Positions 5,088 through 60,161 of a stretch of DNA of 64,000 nucleotides are shown here, one piece after another. Origin of the DNA: Tuwongella immobilis (GTDB taxonomy: Bacteria; Planctomycetota; Planctomycetia; Gemmatales; Gemmataceae); assembly GCF_901538355.1 (NCBI RefSeq), contig NZ_LR593887.1:2394920-2458919 (forward strand), read 5' to 3'. Below the pieces are notes generated by a model. The model was not told the origin of the DNA and searched no databases. It saw only the letters and a list, made by a program, of their open reading frames with translations. How positions within the stretch are numbered: position 1 is the stretch's first letter; every line of letters starts with the position of its first letter. Both the position numbers and the translations under genes were made by a program.

Positions 5088-5903
5088 ATGAGTCGTTCTC
5101 AATCAACGGAGCCTGGCAAAGCGAAAGCCCCAGGCGTTATTTTTCGGATGATCATTGGACTTGGAGATTGGACACAGTTTGCACTCCAATCCATCCTCGG
5201 AATCGTGACCGGACAAGTACCGCGTCGAGAATTGATCCCAATCGGTTTTGCGATCGGATATCAATCCGCGATGGTCGTGGCGTTGTCGGGATTATTTATT
5301 GGATTGGTGTTGGCCGTCCAATCCTACAGTCAATTTAAGGCATTGGGTTTGGAATCCTCGTTAGGCGCTGTCATCAACTTGTCGGTCGTGCGAGAACTTG
5401 GCCCGGTACTGACCGCAACGATGCTCGCCGGGCGAGTTGGGTCTGCGATTGCAGCCGAACTTGCAACGATGCGAGTGACGGAACAAATCGATGCTCTCGC
5501 GTGTTTGGGGGTAAACCCCATCTATTTCTTGGTCAGTCCACGACTACTGGCGTGTATCTTTCTGATTCCATTGTTAACAATTCTCGCGAATTTTTTCGGA
5601 GTATGTGGCGGTGCGCTAATCTGTTTATATGTGTTTGAAATCGAGCCGTTCCACTATTGGGAAAATACACGGGATCGAGTTGGTTTATATGATCTGTTCT
5701 CTGGCTTGGTGAAACCATTTTTCTTTGGAGCCGCGATTGCCTGGATCAGTTGTCATCGTGGATTCCGAAGCGGTAATGGAGCGGTTGGGGTCGGGCGAGC
5801 AGCGACGGAAGCCTTTGTTTGGTCATTTCTCGCAATTTTGGTGTTAGATTTTTTCTTAGTCTTGGTTCTCAATAACATTCTCGATCCACGACTTGAGGGG
5901 TAA
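5088..5903 (+). CDS. mlaE: MCE/Mla-type ABC transporter permease
   Basis: A 271-residue integral membrane permease of the MlaE family, the transmembrane part of an ABC system that moves phospholipids between inner and outer membranes. Five or six hydrophobic helices are visible, with the typical central block VRELGPVLTATMLAGRVGSAIAAE and the following EQIDAL segment. A good ribosome site (GGAAAGGA) precedes the start. It is the first gene of mlaE-mlaF-mlaD; only 3 bases separate it from the ATPase gene. The presence of this system fits an outer-membrane-bearing planctomycete cell. Confidence 0.92.
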   Translation: MSRSQSTEPGKAKAPGVIFRMIIGLGDWTQFALQSILGIVTGQVPRRELIPIGFAIGYQSAMVVALSGLFIGLVLAVQSYSQFKALGLESSLGAVINLSVVRELGPVLTATMLAGRVGSAIAAELATMRVTEQIDALACLGVNPIYFLVSPRLLACIFLIPLLTILANFFGVCGGALICLYVFEIEPFHYWENTRDRVGLYDLFSGLVKPFFFGAAIAWISCHRGFRSGNGAVGVGRAATEAFVWSFLAILVLDFFLVLVLNNILDPRLEG

Positions 5904-5906
5904 CCG

Positions 5907-6743
5907 ATGACAGACCAAGAAAATGAGCCGATTGTTCCACCAATTCTTCCGATTCGTCCGATCATTGAGCTTGAGGAAGTCGGAGTAACATTCACGCAAC
6001 CGGTGATCCGTTCGATATCGCTGCAAATTCTGCCAGGGCAAACGGTTGCAGTCATCGGCGAAAGTGGATGCGGGAAAACCGTGCTGCTCAAGTCAATCGT
6101 TGGGCTGGTGAAACCAACCACGGGAACTGTTCGCTTTGAAGGTCGAGATATTCATTCATTAAGCGAGGCAGAATTAATTCGCACACGATTACGAATGGGG
6201 TTTCTCTTTCAAGGTGCAGCGTTATTCGATAGCTTAAATGTGTTTGAAAATATCGCGTTTGGTGTTCGTTCGCTGGGGACACTTCCAGAAATTGAGATTC
6301 GCGAGCGCGTTCGACGTTGTCTCTTGGATGTCGGATTACCCACCACGACCGAGTCAAAAATGCCTTCCGAGATTTCCGGAGGGATGAAAAAGCGAGTCGG
6401 GCTTGCTCGTGCCTTAGCCTTGAACCCAGATGTCATGTTATACGATGAACCGACAACGGGTTTGGATCCGATAATGACAGATGTAATTAATGAACTCATT
6501 CTTCGAACACGGAAAGCTCGACCAATCACCAGTATTATCGTTACCCATGAAATGCGAACGGTCCATAAAGTTGCCGATCGAGTTGTGATGTTTTATCCGT
6601 TAAGCAGGCTTCGTGAGTCCGATCCGCAAATTCTCTACGATGGCCCTGCGGATCAACTCCAAAATTCATCGGATGTCCGGATCCGCCAATTTATCGAGGG
6701 GGAAGCCGGCGACCGAATGCAAGAACTACAGGCGTCAACTTAA
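5907..6743 (+). CDS. mlaF: MCE/Mla-type ABC transporter ATPase
   Basis: A 278-residue ABC ATPase that energises the MlaE permease. Walker A is GESGCGKT (residues 51-58), the signature is ISGGMKKRVGLARAL and Walker B with the catalytic Glu is VMLYDEPTTGLDP. The N-terminal 20 residues are proline-rich and precede the nucleotide-binding domain. The methionine- and lysine-rich signature is typical of MlaF. It lies 3 bases after mlaE and 14 bases before the MCE gene, so all three form one operon. Confidence 0.93.
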   Translation: MTDQENEPIVPPILPIRPIIELEEVGVTFTQPVIRSISLQILPGQTVAVIGESGCGKTVLLKSIVGLVKPTTGTVRFEGRDIHSLSEAELIRTRLRMGFLFQGAALFDSLNVFENIAFGVRSLGTLPEIEIRERVRRCLLDVGLPTTTESKMPSEISGGMKKRVGLARALALNPDVMLYDEPTTGLDPIMTDVINELILRTRKARPITSIIVTHEMRTVHKVADRVVMFYPLSRLRESDPQILYDGPADQLQNSSDVRIRQFIEGEAGDRMQELQAST

Positions 6744-6757
6744 CGTGGAGATCAATC

Positions 6758-8143
6758 ATGAGTGATCGTGGGAATCAAGTCCGTCTCGGATTGTTCACCC
6801 TTTTTGCGATGGGCATGCTCGCTGCACTCATTTTTTTGTTTAGCGGGTCTCCAAATCTCTTAAAGAATACCGTTCAATATGTGGTTGTCTTTTCTGACGC
6901 ACCAGGGATCTCAGAAGGGGCTCCAGTCCGTCGATCAGGTGTTCGAATTGGGGAAGTGCAAAGTTTAGAATTGGTTCCCGAGACGGGGTTAGTTCGAGTC
7001 GCGATCGTCGTCGATCCTCGGTATGTTCCGCGAACGAAAGAAGATATTACGTTAGTTCGAGGACTGATTACCAACGACACTTCCGTTGATTTGATCCCAC
7101 GGATCCAAGAAAAAGGGCGGTTTGATCTCGGTGAACCAGTCCCTGTGGGAACCGAGTTGGTCGGATTACCTCCGCCGAATGCGCGAACCATCCTAACTCA
7201 AGCATCAGAGGTGCTTCCGACAGCACAGGCATCGTTAGACGAAATTCGTCGCTCGGTCCAACGAATTGACAAGCTCGCTCCGCGCTTGGAAGAAACCTTA
7301 GTTGCGATTCGTGATGCTGCTTCAACAATTGGTGATTTTGTTCCTGAGTTGCGAAAAACGAATGATGAACTTCGTGGCGTGATTACCGGGATTCGCACAG
7401 CCGGGCCACAACTCCGCGAAACCAACGAACAAGTTCAAGTCTTATTGGCGAACGTCAACACAGTGGCTGAGGAATTCCGAGTATTTTTCAAGACGAATGA
7501 ACCAGAGCTAACGCGTTCGATCAAGAATGCAGCGATTTCGATCGAGCGGATTGGAGAAGTATTGAATGATTCAAATCGCGAGAATGTCAGTAAAGCGATT
7601 TTGAATGTCAAAAACGCGAGCGATCGATTTGAGAAAATCGCGGAAAATACCGAAGCTACGCTGAAATCACTGGCAGATACCATCACAATGACTGGCACCG
7701 ATATTCAGAAGCTATTCGAGCGTGCGAGAGTCGGATTTGATAATGTGGAAAAACGATTTAATGAATTCATCAAGAAAATCGAGCCATATGAAGAACGATT
7801 TTCAAAAATCGTTGGAAATGTTGAATCTGCGACAAGCCAAATCAATCAAGGTGCGATGGATGTGCGAGAAGTAATCCGCAACTTCACACGGCCCGATGGA
7901 ACGGTTCAAAAACTCTTGACCGATCCTGGGATTTATAATCAGACATACTTGATCGTGGCGAATCTAAATCGGATTATCCCGAGGTTAGATCGAATTCTAC
8001 AAGATTTTGAGGTGTTTGCAGACAAAATCGCTCGGCATCCGGAATCGATTGGGGTGGGCGGAGCTGTCCGTCCAAGCAGCGGTCTCAAGGAATCACCAGA
8101 ATCAACAGTTCCGAGATCTCCACTTATCCCACCCCGACCATAA
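6758..8143 (+). CDS. mlaD: MlaD-family MCE-domain substrate-binding protein with long coiled coil
   Basis: A 461-residue protein with one N-terminal transmembrane anchor (about residues 13-30), an MCE domain (about 38-120, with GAPVRRSGVRIGEV) and then about 250 residues of heptad-rich helix (about 155-410). The end is a proline-rich tail. MCE domains form hexameric rings that carry lipids, and a long helical extension may form a needle-like tunnel as in PqiB/YebT-type proteins. It is the last gene of the mlaEFD operon. The convergent minus-strand gene at 8152 stops 8 bases beyond. Confidence 0.88.
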   Translation: MSDRGNQVRLGLFTLFAMGMLAALIFLFSGSPNLLKNTVQYVVVFSDAPGISEGAPVRRSGVRIGEVQSLELVPETGLVRVAIVVDPRYVPRTKEDITLVRGLITNDTSVDLIPRIQEKGRFDLGEPVPVGTELVGLPPPNARTILTQASEVLPTAQASLDEIRRSVQRIDKLAPRLEETLVAIRDAASTIGDFVPELRKTNDELRGVITGIRTAGPQLRETNEQVQVLLANVNTVAEEFRVFFKTNEPELTRSIKNAAISIERIGEVLNDSNRENVSKAILNVKNASDRFEKIAENTEATLKSLADTITMTGTDIQKLFERARVGFDNVEKRFNEFIKKIEPYEERFSKIVGNVESATSQINQGAMDVREVIRNFTRPDGTVQKLLTDPGIYNQTYLIVANLNRIIPRLDRILQDFEVFADKIARHPESIGVGGAVRPSSGLKESPESTVPRSPLIPPRP

Positions 8144-8151
8144 TCACTGGA

Positions 8152-8898
8152 TTACGGTTTCTCAAAAACTTTTGGATCGACGGTGTTGAGGAACTCAATG
8201 CTCTTCACCGTCCAATTTCCAACAACTCGATTGTTATGGACCTCAATGATCTGCGTTGGCATCAGAATACCATCGTGTGGCTTGTATTGGCTAAAGTAAG
8301 TATCTTTGATGACTTCCGTTCCCGCTTCACGTCCTTTGAAACTCGATTTAATCAAGACGCCGGTTTCGGTGTCAAAATAGAGACTAACGTCTGGGCGGTT
8401 TTTCATCGATACGAGCAGGCCGTCAACGGCGCGATTTTGGATTCGAGTTGAGGGGAGCGAGCGAAATTGAAGTCGCGGATCTTTTAAACTTATAATGGAT
8501 TGAATCCAACGAGCATGGACCTCCATCCGGATATCATCTGCTTCGACAGCAGTCAACGCAACGGACTCGGCATCAATCGCACGCCAACCCGATTCCTTTG
8601 ATAACGCAATCACCACTGAAACTTTTCGTTCCTCATTCTGTAAGAGAAACTTGACTCGAAAATGTTGTGGAAGATTAACGATTAACTCTTGTGTCGCATC
8701 GGTTGAACCATTCGGGGTACTCATTGTACCGGTTTTCGTGATTTTGACTCGCAGTGCTTTTTCGAGTTTGTTCTCATTCGAACCATGCACCGTGATGGCT
8801 CGGTTGATGATCTTTCCAACCGCTTCGTCGTCTGCCTTTGAATCTCGCACTAGCAGAATCATCCCAAGGCAAATCCCAAACCGGATGCTCCATCGCAT
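8152..8898 (-). CDS. Secreted LolA/RseB-like protein
   Basis: A 248-residue exported protein: signal peptide about residues 1-22 (hydrophobic core followed by SKADDE), then a beta-rich body. The pattern of strands and the ending with IMLPTQI-like and WTVKSIEFL strands recalls LolA / LppX / RseB-type half-barrels that bind acyl chains or lipoproteins, common in planctomycetes. No catalytic motif is seen. The ribosome site GGGAGAG is 8 bases before the start. It is 108 bases downstream of the ECF sigma gene on the same strand, and could be its target or part of its signalling circuit; this is inference from position. Confidence 0.65.
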   Translation of the reverse strand: MRWSIRFGICLGMILLVRDSKADDEAVGKIINRAITVHGSNENKLEKALRVKITKTGTMSTPNGSTDATQELIVNLPQHFRVKFLLQNEERKVSVVIALSKESGWRAIDAESVALTAVEADDIRMEVHARWIQSIISLKDPRLQFRSLPSTRIQNRAVDGLLVSMKNRPDVSLYFDTETGVLIKSSFKGREAGTEVIKDTYFSQYKPHDGILMPTQIIEVHNNRVVGNWTVKSIEFLNTVDPKVFEKP

Positions 8899-9006
8899 TT
8901 CATCGCTCTCCCAATAATTGAAGGTTATGTAGTCTTTACATAAACCGATCGAAAAGTCGATGAAAAGGGATTCATCAATTGGATGATTACGGGGAATTCC
9001 TGCGAT

Positions 9007-9609
9007 TTAATCCGAGTATTCAGACGTGTTTTCCAATTCTTCTCGAAGTTGCAGTCTGGCTCGATATAGTAAGCTTTTGATCGCCTTGGACGACATGGCA
9101 AGTGAGTCTGCAATTTCTCGATGAGAATGATTGGAACAATGCATTTCGAGCGCGATTCGCTGTCGGCCTTCCAGTTGTGAGATCGCATTTTGAACGCGCT
9201 GTTGCGTTTCTCGTTGTTCCAAGACTCGTTCCGGAGGTGACCAATCGAGCAGTGTGCGAGTTTCTTCCAGATTCTCGTTCTGGAAGAAATCACCGACTGG
9301 AATCGTTGGTCGACGCTTTCGAGAACGAATCGCATTTTTTGCGACATTTTGGGCGATATGATACAACCAAGTGGTAAATCGGGCCGAGGCTCGATAGCGT
9401 TTGCGGGAACGGTAGATGCGAAGAAAGACATTTTGTGCCATGTCCTCTGCATCATGACGATCTCCCAATCGACGAACCATTTTCCCATAGACACTCGACC
9501 AATGCCGATTGACTAATTCATGATATGCATGGATATCATCCTGCTGGACCAATAGCATGAGCTCGGCATCACGGTCCGGTTCAGCCAACACGGCGACGAG
9601 AGAATTCAT
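9007..9609 (-). CDS. ECF-type RNA polymerase sigma factor
   Basis: A 200-residue sigma-70 family protein with only regions 2 and 4. Region 2 contains the DAEDMAQNVFLRIYR block and the DNA-melting FTTWLYHIAQNVAKN segment. Region 4 holds the helix-turn-helix HREIADSLAMSSKAIKSLLYRAR. I choose the ATG at 9609 because it overlaps the kinase TAA by one base (TAATG) and has GGGAGCG before it; a longer in-frame start would add 21 residues inside the kinase gene. Being the third gene in a regulator-kinase-sigma chain is unusual, since ECF factors normally sit with an anti-sigma factor. Confidence 0.9.
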   Translation of the reverse strand: MNSLVAVLAEPDRDAELMLLVQQDDIHAYHELVNRHWSSVYGKMVRRLGDRHDAEDMAQNVFLRIYRSRKRYRASARFTTWLYHIAQNVAKNAIRSRKRRPTIPVGDFFQNENLEETRTLLDWSPPERVLEQRETQQRVQNAISQLEGRQRIALEMHCSNHSHREIADSLAMSSKAIKSLLYRARLQLREELENTSEYSD

Positions 9610-11525
9610 TATTTCGCTCCCGACTGGTTGGAATGATTCAAATCGATTATTGGAAGAAATACACGAAAGCAACTGCCACGATTGAGTTCACTTTCGACGA
9701 GGATTCGGCCGCCAAGCCGCTGGACATACTCTTGGACAATCGAGAGACCGAGTCCGGCGTGTATTCCAGTCGCTTGGCGACTTGGATCAGATCGATAGAA
9801 GCGTTCGAAAATTCTTGGAAGCATATCTTGAGAGATGCCAACGCCTGAATCCGTGACACGAATCTCGATAAATTCCTCTTGTCGAGAAGCGGTTAGGGTA
9901 ATCGATCCATTTGGTCGATTATATTCCACAGCGTTATGTAATAGATTCATGAGGATTTCGCGGAGCTTATCGATATCTGTCGTGATCGGAATCTGGTGCT
10001 CGGTTTCAATGGTGAACCGAATCCCTTTTTCCTCGGCGAGCGGACGAATCAACAGACTACAGCTATCAATGACGGGCCGGAGATCAGTCGTAACGGGTTG
10101 AAGTTTCACGGTTCCTGCGTCGAGACAGGCTAACGTCATCACCCGTTCGACAAGTTCCGATAATTGTTGGGTAATCAGTCGACAATCCTTCAGTGTCTCC
10201 CGATATTGATTCTCGGTTCGCGGTTTCCGCAGCGAAACTTCAATTGTTGTCATTAACGCCGCTACTGGAGTTCTTAACTCATGTGAGATATCAGCAGTGG
10301 CTTGCTTCTCTCGCTCAAATGCCGCCCGAAGCTGATCGAGCATCTGAGTCATTCGTTGAGCAATCGGTTTCAACTCGTTGGGTAGACTCTGTAGCTCGAT
10401 TGGTAAGCGAAAATCACGTTCTGTGACTTGGCTAACGGCGAGTGTCAATTGTTTCAGTGGGAACAAGCCAAGTCCGATCAAGAGCCATCCACCCACGGTC
10501 AGGAATGTAAATGCGATCGCACCAATCCCAAGCAGTTGATACCGCAGCTTGGAAATCGAATTTTTGGTTGAATCGATGATGGCTTGTAAGTCGGTGTCTC
10601 GACGGGCGGTTAATTGGTTAACCGTCTCGCGCATTGGGGCCATATCCCAACCGCATTGGACGAGAATATTGGGAAGTTGACTGTCCCAGACGCGTTCTGG
10701 ACGTGATGAATCATTCCGATTCTCACTTCGAGAACTATCGGGACGTGGGGGGGATGATCGATTCGGCCCAGGAGTTCGTTGCGTAAAACTTGTTGATTCG
10801 ATTCGATCCTTTGACGGTGCTGGTGGGGGGCGTGGTGGGGATCGATCGGGTGGTGACGGACGTGGTCCGTTGGGAAAGGGCCACATATAACGAACTCGCG
10901 TGAGTGGTGCTTTTAGCATCACTCGACGCACCATAATGCCATTATCAAGAACTAGATCATCAAAGCGCCAGTCAAATAATGAGCCGCGTTGCATCTTAGG
11001 AATCTGAATTGGAAACTGGAACCCATCTAACGAACGGGAACGCCAAATTTGGCCAAACTCCGTCGTCACTTGATAGAATTCACGATGGTCGTTATCCACA
11101 TCTCGAGGAACAAACTCTTCGTTCAACCGTAACTCGGTTCCATAGATTCGATAGAGTCGAAAACTGAACTGACCGCGAACCCCCTGAGCCAACATGACTG
11201 GAGAATTAACATGACCATAAGGCAAAACCGCGGTTGATAGAACTGTGAGTGGTGCGAATGATAACATCCGAAGCCGATCCCACTGAACTTGTGACTGGGT
11301 CATGCCGGCGAGTGTTCTCGCTTGCGTGAGGAGCGCATGATCACGTTGATCGAGTGCATCACGAATCTGGTCTTCGTGTTGTTGTCGCCGAAGTTCCATC
11401 GCGGATTCTTGACGTGCCATGAGGGTTCTCATGGCGAGTCGATCAATGATGACTCCAACGATGAGGAGGACGGCTACGAGTAATAGGAGCGTATTCACGA
11501 TCAACGATCGACGGATGGATCTCAT
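9609..11525 (-). CDS. Sensor histidine kinase with proline-rich periplasmic domain
   Basis: A 638-residue transmembrane kinase. Helix 1 is about residues 8-30 and helix 2 about 330-357, enclosing a 300-residue extracytoplasmic sensor. The sensor has a proline/serine/arginine-rich stretch at about 221-278 that is probably disordered. A HAMP-like linker follows, then the phosphoacceptor box DISHELRTP (His415), and an ATPase domain with an N box, DSGVGI (about 559-564) and GLGL (about 591-594). It is overlapped by 4 bases at its start by the response regulator and by 1 base at its stop by the sigma gene. The signal is unknown. Confidence 0.92.
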   Translation of the reverse strand: MRSIRRSLIVNTLLLLVAVLLIVGVIIDRLAMRTLMARQESAMELRRQQHEDQIRDALDQRDHALLTQARTLAGMTQSQVQWDRLRMLSFAPLTVLSTAVLPYGHVNSPVMLAQGVRGQFSFRLYRIYGTELRLNEEFVPRDVDNDHREFYQVTTEFGQIWRSRSLDGFQFPIQIPKMQRGSLFDWRFDDLVLDNGIMVRRVMLKAPLTRVRYMWPFPNGPRPSPPDRSPPRPPPAPSKDRIESTSFTQRTPGPNRSSPPRPDSSRSENRNDSSRPERVWDSQLPNILVQCGWDMAPMRETVNQLTARRDTDLQAIIDSTKNSISKLRYQLLGIGAIAFTFLTVGGWLLIGLGLFPLKQLTLAVSQVTERDFRLPIELQSLPNELKPIAQRMTQMLDQLRAAFEREKQATADISHELRTPVAALMTTIEVSLRKPRTENQYRETLKDCRLITQQLSELVERVMTLACLDAGTVKLQPVTTDLRPVIDSCSLLIRPLAEEKGIRFTIETEHQIPITTDIDKLREILMNLLHNAVEYNRPNGSITLTASRQEEFIEIRVTDSGVGISQDMLPRIFERFYRSDPSRQATGIHAGLGLSIVQEYVQRLGGRILVESELNRGSCFRVFLPIIDLNHSNQSGAK

Positions 11526-12232
11526 GCGTTGGAGTCCTCCAAATCGTCCGTGTTCGGTGCTTGTTCACCTCGAAGATAATAGCCTTCGCCCCAACGGGTG
11601 AGGATCAGAGGTGTGTTAAATCCTTTATCAATTTTATTTCGAAGATACCGAATGTACACATCAACGACATTCGACGTGGACTCATCATTTTCGTCGTAAA
11701 GATGCTCCCAAATCATGCTCCGGGTTACAACTTTACCTTGATGAAATGCAAGAAATTCTAATAACGAATATTCTCGAGGCGTTAGGTGAATTTCTTTCCC
11801 CGCCCGACGGACGGTTCGCGCAGCCGTGTCGATTTCCAGATCGTCGATGCGTAGAACGGGGTCTTTGATCTGATGATTGCGTCGAATGAGGGCTCGAATC
11901 CGAGCGAGTAGTTCGTCCAGTTGGAATGGTTTCTTGAGATAATCATCTGCCCCAAAGTCAAGTCCCTGAACAACATCTGGCAATTCTGTCCGTGCCGTCA
12001 GGATCAGAACGTGACTCTGCATTCCTGCAGCTCGCCAGCGCCGAAGGAGAGTCATTCCATCGATTTTTGGGAGCATGAGATCGAGAATGATGACATCGTA
12101 TCGAACGCTGAGCGCCTTTGGTTCGGCTTCCTCACCATCGTATGCGATATCGACCGCGAATCCTTCTTCTTCCAGCCCTTGTCGAAGGGCTCGGACAATT
12201 GTTCGTTGATCTTCGACTAAGAGGATCCGCAT
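11522..12232 (-). CDS. OmpR/PhoB-family response regulator
   Basis: A 236-residue DNA-binding regulator. The receiver domain starts MRILLVEDQ with the phosphorylated Asp at residue 51 (VIILDLMLP) and the Lys in YLKKPF. A winged-helix domain follows, with LTPREYSLLEFLAFHQGKVVTR, VDVYIRYLRNKID and TRWGEGYYL. I choose the ATG at 12232; a longer in-frame version would add 69 residues with no receiver similarity. Its stop overlaps the kinase start (ATGA), so it is the first gene of a regulator-kinase-ECF sigma operon. Confidence 0.93.
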   Translation of the reverse strand: MRILLVEDQRTIVRALRQGLEEEGFAVDIAYDGEEAEPKALSVRYDVIILDLMLPKIDGMTLLRRWRAAGMQSHVLILTARTELPDVVQGLDFGADDYLKKPFQLDELLARIRALIRRNHQIKDPVLRIDDLEIDTAARTVRRAGKEIHLTPREYSLLEFLAFHQGKVVTRSMIWEHLYDENDESTSNVVDVYIRYLRNKIDKGFNTPLILTRWGEGYYLRGEQAPNTDDLEDSNA

Positions 12233-12423
12233 CGAATTGCCCTCGAAGCCCGGACATCGCTCGAAAGTGTGGTGAAATCGTACTCTACATGAATGGGGAT
12301 GAAGGCGCGATGAGAAAAATCGAAACCTGTGCCTTCCACTGGGGTTTAGAACGATTCGCATCAATACGATCTGAGCAAGTTGCATCTTTTCAATTAGCAT
12401 CGGTGCGTTCGGCTTGCCGTGCC

Positions 12424-12500: not shown

Positions 12501-13640
12501 ATGTATCAGCATCCGTTTAAGCGGCACCAAACCAAGGAAGTGTCTGTTGGTGGTGTGATTATCGGTGGCGATAATCCGATTCGTGTTCAATCGATGACAA
12601 CAACCGACACGTTCGATGTGGATGGCACGGTTGCTCAGATTAAACGCCTTGAGGAGGCGGGGTGTGAACTCGTTCGGGTAACGGTGCCAAAGCCGGAAGA
12701 TGCCGCAGCTCTCGGCGAGATTCGGAAGCGAATCGGGATTCCGTTAATCTGTGATATTCACTTTGATTATAAGATGGCATTGGCGGCATTAGACCAGCCT
12801 GTGGATAAAATTCGGATTAATCCGGGTAACATCGGTGGTTACGATCGATTTCGACAGGTGATTCGTAAGGCCAAAGAGCGTGGCTTGCCGATGCGAATTG
12901 GGGTGAATGCGGGGTCGTTAGAAAAAGAATTAGTCGAGAAGTATGGCTTCCCGTGCCCACCTGCGATGGTGGAAAGTGCTTTGCGATATATCGAAATCGC
13001 CGAATCCGAAGGCTACGATCAGATGATTGTATCGTTGAAATCGAGCGATGTGATGACCGCAGTCGAAGCATATCGATTATATGCAAAGCAGGGGAGCTAT
13101 CCAACACATTTGGGGATCACCGAAGCCGGAAAGCCACCCTACGCAATTGTGAAATCGGCAGCAGGATTGTCGCCGTTACTGATTGATGGGATTGGAGATA
13201 CGATCCGAATCAGTCTGCTCGGCGATCCAGTGCCGGAAATTCAAGCCGCGTTTGATATTTTGCAGGCAACGGGGCGTCGCATTCGTCGGCCGGAACTCAT
13301 TGCTTGTCCGACGTGTGGTCGACTTGCGATCGACTTAGAGAAAATTGTTGCAGAACTCGAACAACGATTGGCAGGTCGCCAAACTGCGGTCAAAATTAGT
13401 GTGTTGGGTTGCGTCGTGAATGGCCCTGGCGAGGCAAAAGAAGCGGATATTGGCATCGCGGCAGGCAACGGAAAAGGTGTGATTTTCCGAAATGGTGAAA
13501 TTGTTCGCCACGTTGTGGAAGCCGAAATGGTGGATGCGTTGTTAGAAGAGGTTGATTTGTGGGAGAAAACCCACGGCGATCAACAGCCGCAGACATTGGA
13601 TCGTCACGGCCGGCAACGGTTGCCCATGGTTACAAAGTGA
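12501..13640 (+). CDS. ispG: 4-hydroxy-3-methylbut-2-en-1-yl diphosphate synthase
   Basis: A 379-residue IspG (GcpE), the [4Fe-4S] enzyme that converts methylerythritol cyclodiphosphate to HMBPP in the MEP isoprenoid pathway. Family blocks include PIRVQSMTTTDT, RINPGNIGG, GVNAGSLE and the C-terminal iron-sulfur cysteines in CPTCGR and SVLGCVVNGPGEAKEADIGIAAG. Length matches the compact bacterial type without the plant-like insertion domain. The ATG at 12501 is chosen because MYQHPFKRH matches the usual family N-terminus and GAGGGAA lies before it. A perfect hairpin follows its stop. Confidence 0.95.
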   Translation: MYQHPFKRHQTKEVSVGGVIIGGDNPIRVQSMTTTDTFDVDGTVAQIKRLEEAGCELVRVTVPKPEDAAALGEIRKRIGIPLICDIHFDYKMALAALDQPVDKIRINPGNIGGYDRFRQVIRKAKERGLPMRIGVNAGSLEKELVEKYGFPCPPAMVESALRYIEIAESEGYDQMIVSLKSSDVMTAVEAYRLYAKQGSYPTHLGITEAGKPPYAIVKSAAGLSPLLIDGIGDTIRISLLGDPVPEIQAAFDILQATGRRIRRPELIACPTCGRLAIDLEKIVAELEQRLAGRQTAVKISVLGCVVNGPGEAKEADIGIAAGNGKGVIFRNGEIVRHVVEAEMVDALLEEVDLWEKTHGDQQPQTLDRHGRQRLPMVTK

Positions 13641-13700: not shown

Positions 13701-16043
13701 TTATTCTGATTTCTTCTTCGGTGGAGTCGGGCGGGGTGGTGAATCATCTTCTAACAAGATAAACCCGAGTGGTTTCGGAGGAGATTTCGATTCCTTCGAG
13801 GGTTTTGGGGGTAGATCGGGTTCGGATTCGGCCTGTGGAACCTCATAATCGTCATCCACCAACTGCACCGTGAGAGGCTCCGATTCCTCTTCAAAAATCA
13901 CATCTGGAATTATTGCTTCTGCGTTTTCTCCCTTGAGCCAACGGTCGGCATATTCGTCTTGCATCTTCAAAATGGTGCCCAGATTTTTGAAATGAATCCG
14001 AGCGGATCGGGAGCGGAAGCCGTTTAACTGCTTAAACAATTTATCAATCCATTTCCCGGTGATTGAGGCTCCATCTAAGTCAGATAAGACGGGTTCTGGG
14101 AATAAGAAGTCACCCAGGATGGTCCCGGCTTCAAAGTTTTTCAGTCGAGGAATGCGAATTTCACGGCATTCTTTGGACTTCGTCCGTAACCAGTTGCGAG
14201 CTTCGCGGAGCACCGAGGTGATTTGTTCAAACTGCTCGGCTGGTAGATTGCCGCCGCTGCCAAGCAAAGCCAGGTGCGAATTCACATGTTCAATCAATCC
14301 GGCACAGTCGGTGTGAAGCTCCTGAATGCGAAGCTGGAAGCGATATCGATTGATCAGGTCGCGAAGTGCCTGTTCGCTTAATCGATACGCGAGTTGGCAA
14401 TGCACGAGCACAACGCGTCGATCGAACGATGCAAGCCAATCGATCTGATCATCGAGGCTTTTCTCAAGTTTTTTGACTAATTTCTTCGCTTCATGTCGAT
14501 CAATCGTTCCTTTTCGGAATGGGATTTCCGAGGGAGCTTTTTTATCGTCGAGATATGCCTTTAACAGGTGATATTCTTCTCGGGTTTTGTTATATTCCGG
14601 CATCCGCTCTTCAAGTTCACGATATAATTTTTCGTAGACTCGCTGGAGCCGATCGGTTTCCCAGGGTTCTTCGCCGACTTGATCGACGATCCCGGCTAAA
14701 TCTCCGGGGCGAATCGGGCGACCGTCATACGCTCCGTGATACTTGGGATCGTAAGTCGTTTCCGAACGCTCATCATCAATAAACGTTTGCACGCGTTCGG
14801 GATCGACGAGTTCGGTATTTTTGGGGACGTTAAACACGAGGCGATAGACTTTTCGAGTCATCCGTTCGCGAAGTTCATCGACATTCGAGAACAGAATCCA
14901 TGGGGATCGGTCATCGATTTTCCCCGGGATGTAAAGTTCTTTGGCATTTTCTTCCCGCAGATAATTGGCGGGGTGCGAGGCCCACATTGCGGGAATTCCC
15001 GTCTCATCGCCTTCGGTAAAAATGCGTTGTTTGCGACCGTCTCCGCTCTTGGGCAACGGTGGAGGCATGCCAAGGGTCGGCTTGTTCCGCACGCGTCGGA
15101 GATATTCGGCGGCATGCGTGTGATGGTGGAACATATCTGCGGTATACAGTTGATGATCCGCTGCATCTTTGAGATCATTAAAGACTTGATCCAATGACTC
15201 GTTTGCGAAATCCAATCGTGAGAGCGCGTGAACGATGGCATCGGATCCAGTGACACTAACCGCGACGAGATCGGCATTAAATTCCATTTGCCGACTCATG
15301 GCGAGTCGTCCGAGGGTGATCACGTAAAACAGCCCGGCGAGCGTTTTTCGGATGACCCACATGATGCCTTGAATGGTCCAAGTGAACAATGCGAGGCGGA
15401 GGTCCAGCATGCCAATTTTCGAGAGGATATTGTCGAACCAGTCTCGACCATACACCAATTGGCGGACGATTCGAGATGCGACATACACGTATTGATTGAG
15501 TGCTAATGATTTTTGGGAAAAGTGCCCAAATTCGTGAGCCATGACGGCTTTGAATTCGGACAAATTTAAGGAATTAACAAGGCCAAGCCCGATGAGCAGA
15601 TTTCGGCGGGCAGGAAATACCAAATTCAAGAGTGACAATTCTTGCATCATGGCAGCGTTTACGTCTGGCGAAACGTAGACTTTGCTGGGCAGCGGGGCAC
15701 CCGTTTCGTCGCATAATTTATGGATGAATGCAAACAGGGTAGGGTGTTCGGCTTCTTCAATCTCAATATGGAGGGTTTTGTCGGGGCGTTCGCGTGAGAA
15801 GAACCCTTTGACGAGAAACAACGTGATAATGGGGCAGATGATGATGCCCAAGATGTTATCGTAACGAATCGACAGATTGAACAGATAGATATTGAGAGCA
15901 ATTAAACCAATATAAACGGCAATGAATGCAAGCAGACTCATGAGCAGAGCCACGACTTGCAACGTGTAATTGCCGGTTGGTTGGGTCAAGTCTTCTGGGA
16001 CATCAACCGGACTTGGTGGGTAGGGCACTTTCATTTTGGACAT
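13701..16043 (-). CDS. Large membrane-bound M48-family metalloprotease
   Basis: A 780-residue protein. Two hydrophobic helices (about residues 28-60 and 62-82) precede an M48 peptidase domain whose zinc motif HEFGH is at His170-His174, with the downstream ligand Glu in QMEFNADLVAV. The family usually has 280-400 residues (HtpX, Oma1); here about 450 extra residues follow, charged and predicted largely helical, ending in an acidic then proline/lysine-rich tail. The start at 16043 is supported by GAGGTG 6 bases upstream; a TTG 12 bases earlier is less likely. It is probably a membrane protein quality-control protease; the role of the tail is unknown. Confidence 0.85.
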   Translation of the reverse strand: MSKMKVPYPPSPVDVPEDLTQPTGNYTLQVVALLMSLLAFIAVYIGLIALNIYLFNLSIRYDNILGIIICPIITLFLVKGFFSRERPDKTLHIEIEEAEHPTLFAFIHKLCDETGAPLPSKVYVSPDVNAAMMQELSLLNLVFPARRNLLIGLGLVNSLNLSEFKAVMAHEFGHFSQKSLALNQYVYVASRIVRQLVYGRDWFDNILSKIGMLDLRLALFTWTIQGIMWVIRKTLAGLFYVITLGRLAMSRQMEFNADLVAVSVTGSDAIVHALSRLDFANESLDQVFNDLKDAADHQLYTADMFHHHTHAAEYLRRVRNKPTLGMPPPLPKSGDGRKQRIFTEGDETGIPAMWASHPANYLREENAKELYIPGKIDDRSPWILFSNVDELRERMTRKVYRLVFNVPKNTELVDPERVQTFIDDERSETTYDPKYHGAYDGRPIRPGDLAGIVDQVGEEPWETDRLQRVYEKLYRELEERMPEYNKTREEYHLLKAYLDDKKAPSEIPFRKGTIDRHEAKKLVKKLEKSLDDQIDWLASFDRRVVLVHCQLAYRLSEQALRDLINRYRFQLRIQELHTDCAGLIEHVNSHLALLGSGGNLPAEQFEQITSVLREARNWLRTKSKECREIRIPRLKNFEAGTILGDFLFPEPVLSDLDGASITGKWIDKLFKQLNGFRSRSARIHFKNLGTILKMQDEYADRWLKGENAEAIIPDVIFEEESEPLTVQLVDDDYEVPQAESEPDLPPKPSKESKSPPKPLGFILLEDDSPPRPTPPKKKSE

Positions 16044-16129
16044 GGGACACCTCAAATGGATACCGGATGAGACTACCCTACCATAAACAGAAGATCAGCG
16101 ACAAGCCTGGAGGTGATCGAACATCGCGA

Positions 16130-17515
16130 TCAGGAATTGGGAACCTCGATCCCCAGAAGTTCAATCTTTCGATAGAGCGAGCTTAGCCCGATATCCAATC
16201 GCCGAGCGGCTTCGCGTTTATCTGGAGTTTGCTTGAGAATCCGCTCAATATGCATCTTCTCGAAGCGTTCCACGGCTTTGGAAAGATCATCGACAGCGAA
16301 CGGATCGTTCGGCGGCGGTGCGAGATCGGGCGGAAGATCGAATGGGGTGATGAGCGGTGCTTCGCCGAGGATAACGGCGCGTTGAATCGCGTTGTCCAAC
16401 TCGCGGACGTTGCCTTTCCAGCGAGCCGTCATCAGGGTTTGCATCGCTTCGTGGCTGACGCCGGTGAAGCGCTTCCCGAGAAGTCGCGCATGGCGAGCGA
16501 GTAGAAATTCGACGAGTTCGGGAATATCGTCACGACGTTCCCGCAATGGTGGAAGTGGGATTGTTAGCACATTCAGTCGATAGAACAGGTCTTCACGAAA
16601 CCGTCCGGCTTCGACTTCTCGGGTCAAATCCTTATTCGTGGCGGCAACGATCCGCGCTTCGATTTCGACTGGTTCGTTTGCACCAACTGGGAAGATTTCT
16701 TTTTGCTCGAGCGTCCGTAAGAGTTTGGCTTGGGTGCCGAGGGGCAATTCGCCAATTTCGTCCAAAAACACGGTGCCATCACCCGCGTGGATAAAGACGC
16801 CGCTGGAATCGCGGTCGGCCCCAGTGAATGCCCCGCGACGGTGGCCAAACAATTGATTTTCCAGCAAATCGGCTGGGATTGCCGCGCAATTGAGGGCAAT
16901 GAATCGGCCATCTCGGGGACGTGCTTCCGTCGATTGACGGTGGATGGCGCGGGCGACGAGTTCTTTGCCGGTGCCGGATTCGCCTTGAATGAGGACGGTG
17001 GATGGTGTGGGAGCGACGCGGCGAATGAGTTCGTGGACGCGTTGCATCGCGGCGGATTTGCCGATCAGCCGATCGGCTTCCGCTTCACGGTTCAATTCCC
17101 GACGTAGCCATTGATTTTCCATGGATAAATCGCGCAGAGTCAGCAGTCTGCGGATTTTGTTGCCGACTTCTTCAAGCAGAATCGGCTTCATGAGAAAATC
17201 GTGTGCGCCTTTCTGGAAGGCTTCCACGGCGTTTTCGACGGTCGCGTACGCAGTAATCAGCATGACTGAGGTTTCGGGACTGACCTGTCGCACGCGATCG
17301 AGGACTTCCAAGCCATCGACACCGGGCAAGTTGATGTCGCAGAGGATGATATCGAATCGACGGTCGGTGATTCGCTTGATGGCATCTTCGCCACTGGGGG
17401 CGAGTACCACGTCGTATCCTTGCTGTTGCAGGAATTCGCCGATGGTTTCGCGGATAATCAGTTCATCATCGACGATCAGGACCACGGCCCGCGGCCGAGC
17501 AATACGGTTCGCCAT
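16130..17515 (-). CDS. NtrC-family sigma-54 response regulator
   Basis: A 461-residue three-domain activator. The receiver domain carries the phosphorylated Asp60 (IILCDINLPG). The AAA+ domain has Walker A GESGTGKE (178-185), the sigma-54 contact loop GAFTGA (228-233) and Walker B VFLDE (249-253). The C-terminus is a Fis-type helix-turn-helix (KREAARRLDIGLSSLYRKIELL). It should activate sigma-54 promoters when phosphorylated by the kinase encoded 3 bases upstream. Targets are not evident in the window. Confidence 0.95.
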   Translation of the reverse strand: MANRIARPRAVVLIVDDELIIRETIGEFLQQQGYDVVLAPSGEDAIKRITDRRFDIILCDINLPGVDGLEVLDRVRQVSPETSVMLITAYATVENAVEAFQKGAHDFLMKPILLEEVGNKIRRLLTLRDLSMENQWLRRELNREAEADRLIGKSAAMQRVHELIRRVAPTPSTVLIQGESGTGKELVARAIHRQSTEARPRDGRFIALNCAAIPADLLENQLFGHRRGAFTGADRDSSGVFIHAGDGTVFLDEIGELPLGTQAKLLRTLEQKEIFPVGANEPVEIEARIVAATNKDLTREVEAGRFREDLFYRLNVLTIPLPPLRERRDDIPELVEFLLARHARLLGKRFTGVSHEAMQTLMTARWKGNVRELDNAIQRAVILGEAPLITPFDLPPDLAPPPNDPFAVDDLSKAVERFEKMHIERILKQTPDKREAARRLDIGLSSLYRKIELLGIEVPNS

Positions 17516-17518
17516 GGG

Positions 17519-18838
17519 TTAGGCTCCTGGAGTGGGAAACGGTTCCGCCAGTTGCGGCAATGGGAGTCGGACCTGGAATTCGGTTCCAACTCCGGGGATG
17601 GATTCAAATTCCACGGTTCCGGCGTGTTCGGTAATCATTTTTTGCGTCACGAATAGTCCCAGGCCGGTCCCGTGTTCTTTCGTGGTGTAGTACGGTTGAA
17701 AGAGACGGATTTGATTTTCGGGGGAAATTCCGGCACCGTTATCTTTCACGGTCACCATCAACCAGTCGCCTTCCCGCTTCGCTCGCACGTCAATCCGACC
17801 ACCTTTATGAGTCGCATCGATGGCATTCAACAGTAGATTGAGAAACACTTGCACGAGTTGGTCGCGCACGCCAACCAGAAGTGGCAATTTCTCGGGAATT
17901 TCTGCGGTAATGATCCGACTATTGGTACCATGGTAGTATTTCGCAATCTTCATGGCTTCGTGAATGATATCTGCAATGGCGATTCGCGTTCGCTGTTTGC
18001 TTGCGGGGCGCGAGAAATTCATCAGTTCCCGCAGGGTCCCTTGAATGCGATGCAGTTGCCCGGAGACCAATCCCAAACGATCGCGGGTATATTCGTCGAT
18101 ATCCCGTTTTTCTAGAAGTTGCACGACCGTTGAGATGGAAGTGAGCGGATTGCCGACTTCGTGGGCAATTCCCGCTGCGAGCAATCCGAAGGCGGCCATT
18201 TTTTCCTGATGCCACATCTGGGCTTGCGTCTCTTGCAGCTCGCGCGCACTGGCTTGAATGCGAGCTTCCAATTCGGCTTGGTTCTTTCGCAGGGCACTAT
18301 TCAATTCGATGAGATTTTCGCCAATTCGCTTGATGAGTCGGGACATTGACGAGCTTGCCCAAGTGACCCAGACTAACACGATGAGCATCAAAAACAGTGC
18401 GAATGCGTTGCCGCGTTCGGGGGGCAATGTCGTGTACAGAATCCAATAGCTGAGGCAATCCAAGGCGCACGTAATGGCGGTCAGTCTTGCCGAGTATCGG
18501 ATCGCGCAGCAAATCAACGAAAGTAGATAATAATATCGAAATGGACTATCCAACCCGGAATCGAAGTAGCAGAGAAGCCCGATGAAGAGTGCTTCGAGAA
18601 TCGAAATGACGATCGGATAGCGTCCTAAGAACACCCGGCCACGAAGCGAATAGAAGGTATCGAGAACGGTGAAGATTGCGCCTAAACTCAGGATGGCATT
18701 GAGGATCCACCGCACGGAGAGTGGGGCGGCGATGTTGACGTAGAGATATCCGACCAGGAGGCCGAACCAACGGATTTTCACCGCAATCGCTTCTGCGTCG
18801 AGTTCCCAAGCGGGCAGAGGTGGGGATAGAGTACGCAT
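17519..18838 (-). CDS. NtrB-like membrane histidine kinase
   Basis: A 439-residue kinase. The first 160 residues hold about five or six hydrophobic helices forming a membrane sensor without a large periplasmic domain. A coiled-coil linker leads to the phosphoacceptor segment AAGIAHEVGNPLTSI (His226) and an ATPase domain with DNGAGIS and GTGLGLFVTQKMI. The HEVGNPL form is typical of NtrB/AtoS-type kinases that pair with sigma-54 activators, which agrees with the NtrC-like gene 3 bases downstream. The ATG at 18838 is preferred over a longer start lacking a membrane-like N-terminus. Confidence 0.9.
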   Translation of the reverse strand: MRTLSPPLPAWELDAEAIAVKIRWFGLLVGYLYVNIAAPLSVRWILNAILSLGAIFTVLDTFYSLRGRVFLGRYPIVISILEALFIGLLCYFDSGLDSPFRYYYLLSLICCAIRYSARLTAITCALDCLSYWILYTTLPPERGNAFALFLMLIVLVWVTWASSSMSRLIKRIGENLIELNSALRKNQAELEARIQASARELQETQAQMWHQEKMAAFGLLAAGIAHEVGNPLTSISTVVQLLEKRDIDEYTRDRLGLVSGQLHRIQGTLRELMNFSRPASKQRTRIAIADIIHEAMKIAKYYHGTNSRIITAEIPEKLPLLVGVRDQLVQVFLNLLLNAIDATHKGGRIDVRAKREGDWLMVTVKDNGAGISPENQIRLFQPYYTTKEHGTGLGLFVTQKMITEHAGTVEFESIPGVGTEFQVRLPLPQLAEPFPTPGA

Positions 18839-19006
18839 GAGCTTCCGGGGGCGCGCACAGACGAATTCATTTCGATGCGGCCATTGTATCAGGAAAAAGT
18901 CGGCTGGAGGGGGGAACAATGGAATTGACCGGAATCGGGCAAGATCGGTAAGATCCCGACAATCTGGAATTCCGCCTTGTCATCGGCTCGGAAGGGAAGT
19001 CGTCCG

Positions 19007-39849: not shown

Positions 39850-39922
39850 GCTCGCGTAGCTCAACCGGTAGAGCAACGGTTTTGTAAACCGTAGGTTGTG
39901 GGTTCAAGTCCCTCCGTGAGCT
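39850..39922 (+). tRNA. tRNA-Thr (anticodon UGU)
   Basis: A complete cloverleaf: acceptor arms GCTCGCG and CGTGAGC, the D-loop AGCTCAACCGGTAGAGC, an anticodon stem ACGGT/ACCGT with loop TTTGTAA (anticodon TGT, codon ACA), and a T-loop TTCAAGT whose stem has one T-T mismatch. The CCA end is not encoded. It is first in the Thr-Tyr-Gly-Thr cluster, the place of E. coli thrU. Confidence 0.92.
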
Positions 39923-39955
39923 TTGGACGACCTCGGTTGTTCAGACAAAATTATT

Positions 39956-40038
39956 GGGCAGGTGGCAGAGCGGTCAATTGCACCAGACTGTAAATCTGGC
40001 GGGGAAACCCTTCACAGGTTCGATTCCTGTCCTGCCCA
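39956..40038 (+). tRNA. tRNA-Tyr (anticodon GUA)
   Basis: A class II tRNA with a long variable arm. Acceptor GGGCAGG pairs with CCTGCCC; the anticodon stem CCAGA/TCTGG encloses CTGTAAA (anticodon GTA, codons UAU/UAC). The variable arm is about 13 bases. T-loop GTTCGATTC is canonical, and CCA is not encoded. Second in the cluster, the place of tyrU. Confidence 0.94.
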
Positions 40039-40081
40039 ATCGGAATTTGCTGGGTGAATTCTGAAATGTTTGATAGCTGAC

Positions 40082-40152
40082 GCGGGTGTAGCTTAGTGGT
40101 AAAGCCCCTGCCTTCCAAGCAGGACATGTGGGTTCGATTCCCATCACCCGCT
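40082..40152 (+). tRNA. tRNA-Gly (anticodon UCC)
   Basis: Acceptor GCGGGTG pairs with CACCCGC; the anticodon stem CCTGC/GCAGG encloses CTTCCAA (anticodon TCC, codon GGA). D-arm and T-arm are regular, and CCA is not encoded. Third in the cluster, the place of glyT. The spacer to the next tRNA contains a 6-base-pair stem (40173-40178 with 40182-40187), a likely processing element. Confidence 0.94.
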
Positions 40153-40193
40153 CTGTCGGTGGACGAGTCCGGCGCCTGCGTCAGGCGAAATTT

Positions 40194-40266
<73 letters not shown>

Positions 40267-40348
40267 CTCGGGTCCACCGTGAAAATAGTCACCTTCAAGG
40301 AGCCGCTCAGGGGTATCGGTAAACGATGCTTCCACATGCGGAGGAGCG

Positions 40349-41569
<1,221 letters not shown>

Positions 41570-41603
41570 GTCTGATTGGTATCTTGCCAAAAGTTAGATA
41601 TCC

Positions 41604-41640
41604 GAGGCGATCATGAGCGAGATTCGATCATGATCGCTTC
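41604..41640 (+). promoter_or_regulatory. Hairpin between tuf and tRNA-Trp
   Basis: Ten perfect pairs (41607-41616 with 41628-41637) extend to 13 with one G-T pair (41604-41616 with 41628-41640), around an 11-base loop. It ends 4 bases before the tRNA. No T-run follows, so an RNA-processing stem that separates tuf mRNA from the tRNA is more likely than a terminator. Confidence 0.5.
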
Positions 41641-41644
41641 CATT

Positions 41645-41717
41645 AGGGACGTAGCTCAATTGGCAGAGCACCGGTTTCCAAAACCGGCGGTTGAGCGTTC
41701 GACTCGCTCCGTCCCTG
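41645..41717 (+). tRNA. tRNA-Trp (anticodon CCA)
   Basis: Acceptor AGGGACG pairs with CGTCCCT; the anticodon stem CCGGT/ACCGG encloses TTCCAAA (anticodon CCA, codon UGG). D-arm and T-arm are regular, discriminator G, and CCA is not encoded. The tuf-trpT-secE-nusG order is seen in many bacterial phyla. Confidence 0.95.
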
Positions 41718-59616: not shown

Positions 59617-60161
59617 GACGACACCTCGGGGTCCAGATAAGGAGCCAGAAAATCACCTAACGTCTTTCGGGCACGATGGATCAGGACGCCGACATTGCCT
59701 GCAGACACATCCAGAATCTCGGCGATCTCGGCCTGGGAATGACCGTCTGCCTTGAGTTGGAGTGCTGCCCGCTGAATCGGCGGAAGCAACGCCATCCCGG
59801 CTGCGATTTGCTCCACAAGTTCTTGCTGCATCAGTCGTTGCTCCACGGGCTCGGGGCGTGGATCGGCTGGTTCGATCGCGGTCTGGTCGTCGTCTTGCTG
59901 ACGAAACAGACTCAGCCACGGTCGGCGGCGCGTTCGGGCATTGATGCACGCATTGGTGATTGCGCGGAGCAGAATTTTCATTCCGTCTTGCGGAAGATTG
60001 TATTCATCTGCATGTCGGAGGACTCGGCAATAGCAATCCTGAACGATATCCTCGGCCTGATGCCAGTTCCCACCCAACAGCGATCGGGCGTAACCCAGTG
60101 CGCGGGCGGAAGTTGCCAGCACCCAGGCATCGAGTGGATTCGGGTCAGGAGCACCGGGCAC
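59613..60161 (-). CDS. ECF-type RNA polymerase sigma factor
   Basis: A 182-residue sigma factor with region 2 (SLLGGNWHQAEDIVQDCYCRVLRHAD) and region 4 (LLPPIQRAALQLKADGHSQAEIAEILDVSAGNVGVLIHRARKTL). It overlaps the downstream membrane protein gene by 4 bases. The start is not decided by a strong ribosome site, but family length supports 60161. The stimulus and targets are unknown. Confidence 0.88.
   Translation of the reverse strand: MPGAPDPNPLDAWVLATSARALGYARSLLGGNWHQAEDIVQDCYCRVLRHADEYNLPQDGMKILLRAITNACINARTRRRPWLSLFRQQDDDQTAIEPADPRPEPVEQRLMQQELVEQIAAGMALLPPIQRAALQLKADGHSQAEIAEILDVSAGNVGVLIHRARKTLGDFLAPYLDPEVSS

Follow-up and report, generated by a model that had tools for sequence, protein, structure and literature searches.

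Predicted transcriptional control of an ECF sigma factor by a two-component system in Gemmatales

The locus and its surroundings

The window analysed here is a stretch of 64 kb (G000:C1:2394920-2458919) of a 6.69-Mb genome in one contig. On its minus strand lie, in order of transcription, the genes for an OmpR/PhoB-family response regulator of 236 aa (11522-12232; Pfam Response_reg 1e-28, Trans_reg_C 1e-24), a membrane histidine kinase of 638 aa (9609-11525; Pfam HAMP, HisKA with H415, and HATPase_c), an ECF sigma factor of 200 aa (9007-9609; Pfam Sigma70_r2 and Sigma70_r4_2) and, after a gap of 108 nt, a secreted protein of 248 aa with a signal peptide and a predicted LolA/RseB fold (8152-8898; AlphaFold pLDDT 92.8). 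Both overlaps that an earlier note on this DNA had described are present: the regulator stop and the kinase ATG share ATGA (overlap of -4), and the kinase TAA and the sigma ATG meet in TAATG with one common A. Each of the three genes has its own Shine-Dalgarno-like stretch as read from the sequence (GAGGG, GGAGG and GGGAG), so that the translational coupling proposed in that note is possible but not needed.

The LolA-like gene converges with an operon for lipid transport (MlaE, an MlaF-like ATPase and MlaD/MCE; 5088-8143, plus strand; Pfam MlaE, ABC_tran, MlaD), whose 3' end lies 8 nt away, and an MCE gene takes the equivalent convergent position in three other loci (g16, g30 and g32). On the other side, ispG (gcpE; 12501-13640, plus strand; Pfam GcpE 2.5e-141) is divergent from the operon, as it is in L038. 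Farther out, an M48 peptidase-like gene (784 aa, 13701-16055) precedes a second two-component pair, composed of an NtrC-type sigma54 activator and a kinase (16130-18919, minus strand), 4 kb upstream of the operon. Five tRNA genes cluster at 39850-41717 (plus strand), and two more, distant ECF-like genes lie nearby, one at about 59652-60071 (minus strand) and one just left of the window (G000:C1:2393844-2394368).

A two-component system conserved across the order

The regulator joins a receiver with a phospho-acceptor aspartate (D51) to a winged helix, and the kinase joins HAMP, a phospho-acceptor histidine (H415) and an ATPase domain, the composition of an OmpR-type two-component system. Both phospho-acceptors are invariant in alignments of relatives, among which the DNA-binding domain is extremely conserved. 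Regulator orthologues were found in 88 of the 102 genomes of the order (67 of the 71 good ones), nearly all at 67-77% identity and mostly as a single copy. Gemmata, Limnoglobus and Fimbriiglobus are the named relatives among them, which marks the genome as that of a Gemmataceae-like planctomycete. One locus (L171, G112:C318:125283-127236) has two co-oriented tandem copies, with 73% and 70% identity to the regulator of the window, and in another (L043, G036:C215) the regulator is split across two frames, probably an assembly error of the draft genome.

The kinase has two transmembrane helices and an extracytoplasmic domain of about 290 residues with a Pro-rich loop. Residues 1-356 were modelled at a pLDDT of 81; a Foldseek search with the sensor-domain model returned no significant match (best E 0.15), and VIA gave Z 8-10 for its likeness to PhoQ (8.7) and further PAS/PDC domains of the extracytoplasmic kind, a weak similarity of a size that can be background.

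A predicted regulator box before the operon

A spaced-word search 5' of the regulator genes revealed a direct repeat in 16 genera, compared to at most 6 in shuffles, which was refined to [TC]TCTCAT-N4-CTTT[CA]AT (in short TTCTCAT-N4-CTTTCAT) with an 11-bp period. This box precedes the regulator at about 79 of 84 loci, that of the window included, and 51 of the 79 sites have a TAnnnT (-10) at an offset of 28 or 29 from the start of the box, that is, 10-11 nt past the repeat. Matrices trained on half of the genera recovered the held-out ones at rates between 34 of 43 and 55 of 56, compared to 0-1 in reversed controls. In the window, the predicted regulator-binding repeat TTCTCAT-CGCG-CCTTCAT (TTCTCATCGCGCCTTCAT; 12299-12316, minus strand; 21.2 bits) tops all 64 kb by 9 bits and, by the offset rule, a predicted -10 element TAGAGT (12282-12287, minus strand) follows 11 nt past it; ahead of the LolA-like gene the best box-like score is 7.9 bits (8949-8966).

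OmpR/PhoB activators that replace a -35 element have such a repeat period and such a spacing to the -10, which makes autoactivation the natural reading and predicts that the operon is autoregulated by its own regulator. As the box is present in loci with and without the ECF gene, it seems that this gene came under the control of a promoter that already existed. A consensus scan of the kinase 3' end ahead of the sigma gene, on its strand, found no sigma70-like site, a result compatible with an internal promoter of ECF or other type.

Predicted targets and the nature of the signal

Across 73 genomes, the strict combination of box and -10 has 28 matches and none in controls and, besides those at regulator promoters, two lie ahead of a gene for a secreted LTXXQ protein (Spy/CpxP family; Pfam LTXXQ). 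When a matrix from regulator promoters, trained without Spy-like genes, was applied to relatives, 21 of 50 Spy-like genes had a strong site in the 500 nt ahead of them; the reverse strand gave 1 of 50, positions farther downstream gave 3 of 47, and permuted matrices gave a mean of 0.53. At the level of sequence, the pattern suggests a role in envelope stress comparable to that of Cpx or Bae. In the genome of the window, the Spy-like genes of two regions (L291 and L292) have no box ahead of them, and its three strict sites outside the operon, compared to one in the control, may at such a number be chance; by gene names read from the sequence, they precede a GspG-like pseudopilin (G000:C1:4901355-4901372, minus strand), a siroheme-synthase-like gene (G000:C1:5728560-5728577, plus strand) and a DUF1559-type pseudopilin (G000:C1:1450526-1450543, plus strand).

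The box also occurs at matching non-Spy places in two pairs of relatives (L236/L257 in G076 and G015, and L251/L252 in G106 and G110), which are possible further members of the regulon, one such place being ahead of a large secreted protein whose sequence begins MSDSS..LRRGLEALEDRITP. LTXXQ proteins as such are widespread in the order (L254, L255 and L261-L290), several of them in tandem or inside open frames of about 800 aa.

A heavy-metal signal of the Cus/Czc kind would fit the same transcriptional mechanism. Spy-like proteins are also part of metal responses, and the best NCBIfam names for the pair are cztR/silR/copR (221.8 bits) and cztS/silS/copS (232.2 bits); yet both scores fall under the curated cut-offs (279.2 and 292.55), no efflux genes adjoin the operon, and its neighbours are envelope genes of the Mla and LolA-like kinds. 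We thus regard metals as an unlikely signal and envelope stress as the preferred one.

One ECF clade linked to the kinase

The sigma factor scores 96.1 bits with NCBIfam sigma70-ECF (cut-off 42.9), which places it in the ECF group (group 4), and consists only of regions 2 and 4, with no extension. An ECF gene lies immediately 3' of the kinase in 15 of the 69 genomes of the order that can be scored (at least 1 kb readable past the kinase), and 54 have none there; one further positive comes on top of the 15, G017, whose contig lacks the regulator. With G017 included, the same-strand order of regulator, kinase and ECF recurs in 16 genomes from 14 genera and two families, well beyond chance. Conservation among relatives, on which the earlier note made its reading depend, thus holds for the gene order in these genomes and fails in most relatives, where the two-component system is present but the sigma factor is not. 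The overlaps differ too: relative to the kinase stop, the sigma start lies between -4 and about +194 nt, TAATG is not conserved, and the -4 overlap of regulator and kinase is frequent without being universal. Translational coupling was therefore rejected as the essence of the arrangement.

All 16 linked ECFs form one clade (support 87/99), with a separate branch for each family; an earlier tree gave 98/89 for 15 rows and left the mis-cut row of L048 outside. On the tree of regulators and kinases, ECF presence is patchy and takes at least 10 changes. Together, the two family branches and this patchiness suggest that the ECF gene joined the system once, in the ancestor of the order and before its two families split, and was then lost repeatedly, bearing in mind that trees of this kind do not alone separate gain from loss.

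The sigma gene could merely lodge in the operon, under its own control, with the two-component system working without it. That the system can do without the ECF follows from the 54 genomes that lack it, and the variable overlap fits such lodging as well. However, one ECF clade has kept its position through the split of two families with no anti-sigma gene beside it, and the best ECF elsewhere in those ECF-less genomes sampled in the tree belongs to another, sister clade, which makes lodging alone improbable. The proposal that regulator, kinase and sigma factor form one circuit is instead supported by an order probably inherited from the ancestor of Gemmatales, by the lack of an anti-sigma gene of the sister-clade type and by a regulator-type box before the whole operon.

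Probable exchange of a putative anti-sigma partner

This separate sister clade comprises the nearest other ECFs, which occur throughout the order and the class and are about 36-45% identical; one member is in the genome of the window (G000:C1:5698430). At sister-clade loci, the ECF gene overlaps a downstream gene whose product has an AYLDGE motif and a membrane helix, and at the two loci that were read a third gene follows. The motif resembles zf-HC2 anti-sigma domains, although zf-HC2 itself scores below its cut-off, and we infer that this membrane protein is an anti-sigma factor. Its profile matches 23 of 23 sister-clade loci and none of the 16 linked to the two-component system; on this sequence evidence, the linked clade is one that exchanged a putative anti-sigma partner for a two-component system. 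The anti-sigma-linked form is probably the older state, as it occurs outside the order too (L035 and L037).

The earlier note had seen no recognisable anti-sigma gene, and indeed the type of the sister clade is absent from the locus, while Pfam scans of the neighbouring genes found no other type near the ECF. The gene content is thus that of an ECF controlled in the SigE-CseBC manner, an operon with an OmpR-type two-component system and without a nearby anti-sigma gene.

An alternative is control after translation, in which the kinase or phosphorylated regulator would bind or modify the sigma factor, or a distant anti-sigma or partner switch would act on it, and co-transcription would merely keep the ratio. 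ECFs under the control of kinases or partner switches have been described (PMC8999054), and about 20 other ECF-like matches in the genome make distant partners possible. Against this, the regulator is of the plain OmpR type, with a conserved DNA-binding domain and, by Pfam, no PhyR-like sigma mimic, and the box offers a sufficient transcriptional route. We consider such control quite unlikely and favour control by transcription.

A predicted LolA-fold protein beside the same kinase

Foldseek matches the model of the secreted protein to LolA3 (E 3.9e-8), NE2245 (6.2e-8) and RseB (2e-6), as well as to the MucB fold, which places it in the LolA/RseB superfamily. No Pfam family reaches its cut-off on this protein, LolA_like scoring only below it; the description as LolA-like is right by fold. 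Searches with tblastn returned no match in relatives, but a profile search found homologues 3' of the same kinase in 10 genomes from six genera, several of them apparent lipoproteins, a recurrence that agrees with the suggestion that the protein belongs to the system.

Nine of these 10 genomes have no ECF there, and both partners were seen together only in the genome of the window. With the window, they occupy one part of the regulator and kinase tree. A quick tree does not show the genes themselves to be one clade (3 changes), so that they may have been recruited on separate occasions. By analogy with RseB and CseA, the LolA-like protein could serve as an accessory sensor, or else be an output.

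Discussion

We propose that an envelope-stress two-component system controls this ECF sigma factor by transcription, in the manner of SigE-CseABC, and give this reading a probability of roughly two in three. Most likely, the sensor switches the sigma factor on by raising its amount. The kinase, judging by its family, would sense an extracytoplasmic signal and phosphorylate the regulator, which would bind the conserved repeat at 12299-12316 in place of a -35 element and activate a sigma70-type promoter of its own operon, with the -10 at 12282-12287. Regulator, kinase, ECF and LolA-like protein would then rise together and, with no anti-sigma encoded nearby, fresh sigma factor would be active at once on its own regulon. 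The LolA-fold protein probably binds a periplasmic lipid or lipoprotein and has a part in modulating the kinase or in envelope repair, which is the weakest step.

In a broader and more tentative reading, which we think may well be wrong, one ECF clade in one order swapped its anti-sigma factor for a whole two-component system, this system recruited a LolA-fold accessory sensor, and the window keeps both, a counterpart of SigE-CseABC that would merge Cpx-like and RpoE/RseB-like signalling in one operon.

The regulatory principle is already known. For the lineage, the partner exchange and the operator we found no earlier description; planctomycete ECF surveys and the 2021 ECF reclassification lie outside the literature searched, so that an earlier mention is possible. 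The case offers a clear comparative example of an ECF that apparently passed from anti-sigma to two-component control, both states being present in the same genomes, and the change can be located inside the order, earlier than the divergence of its two families. A nearly universal, unnamed two-component system of Gemmatales also gains a concrete predicted operator sequence, so that its regulon can be tested, in a phylum whose cell envelope is unusual and whose stress regulation is little known.

Among known systems, ECF234 of Paenibacillus also has a two-component system conserved beside the ECF, with transcriptional control proposed (PMC8999054), in another phylum and likened here by description, not by sequence. 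Like the Cpx, Bae and Spy regulons, the present system has an OmpR-type pair, and in relatives its predicted box lies before some LTXXQ genes; unlike them, the window has an ECF within the same operon, and the Spy-like genes examined in its genome lack the box. As in RpoE-RseA-RseB and AlgU-MucA-MucB, a periplasmic protein of LolA fold (by fold match) is encoded with an ECF, whereas here there is no anti-sigma, the signal would pass through a kinase, and TM-scores to RseB are only 0.24-0.31. The closest kin by ECF is the sister clade, with its putative membrane anti-sigma downstream instead of a two-component system. In the SigE operon of Streptomyces, the sigma gene comes first. Here the order is regulator, kinase, sigma factor and secreted protein, the last has a LolA fold, the phylum is another, and the likeness described here is one of gene content. 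SigE-CseBC-CseA (ECF39) of Streptomyces coelicolor is nevertheless the precedent for an ECF controlled by a two-component system, and like the present operon it combines an ECF that has no anti-sigma with genes for an OmpR-type regulator, a sensor kinase and a secreted protein (there a lipoprotein); its control is at the level of transcription (PMC8999054), as is predicted here.
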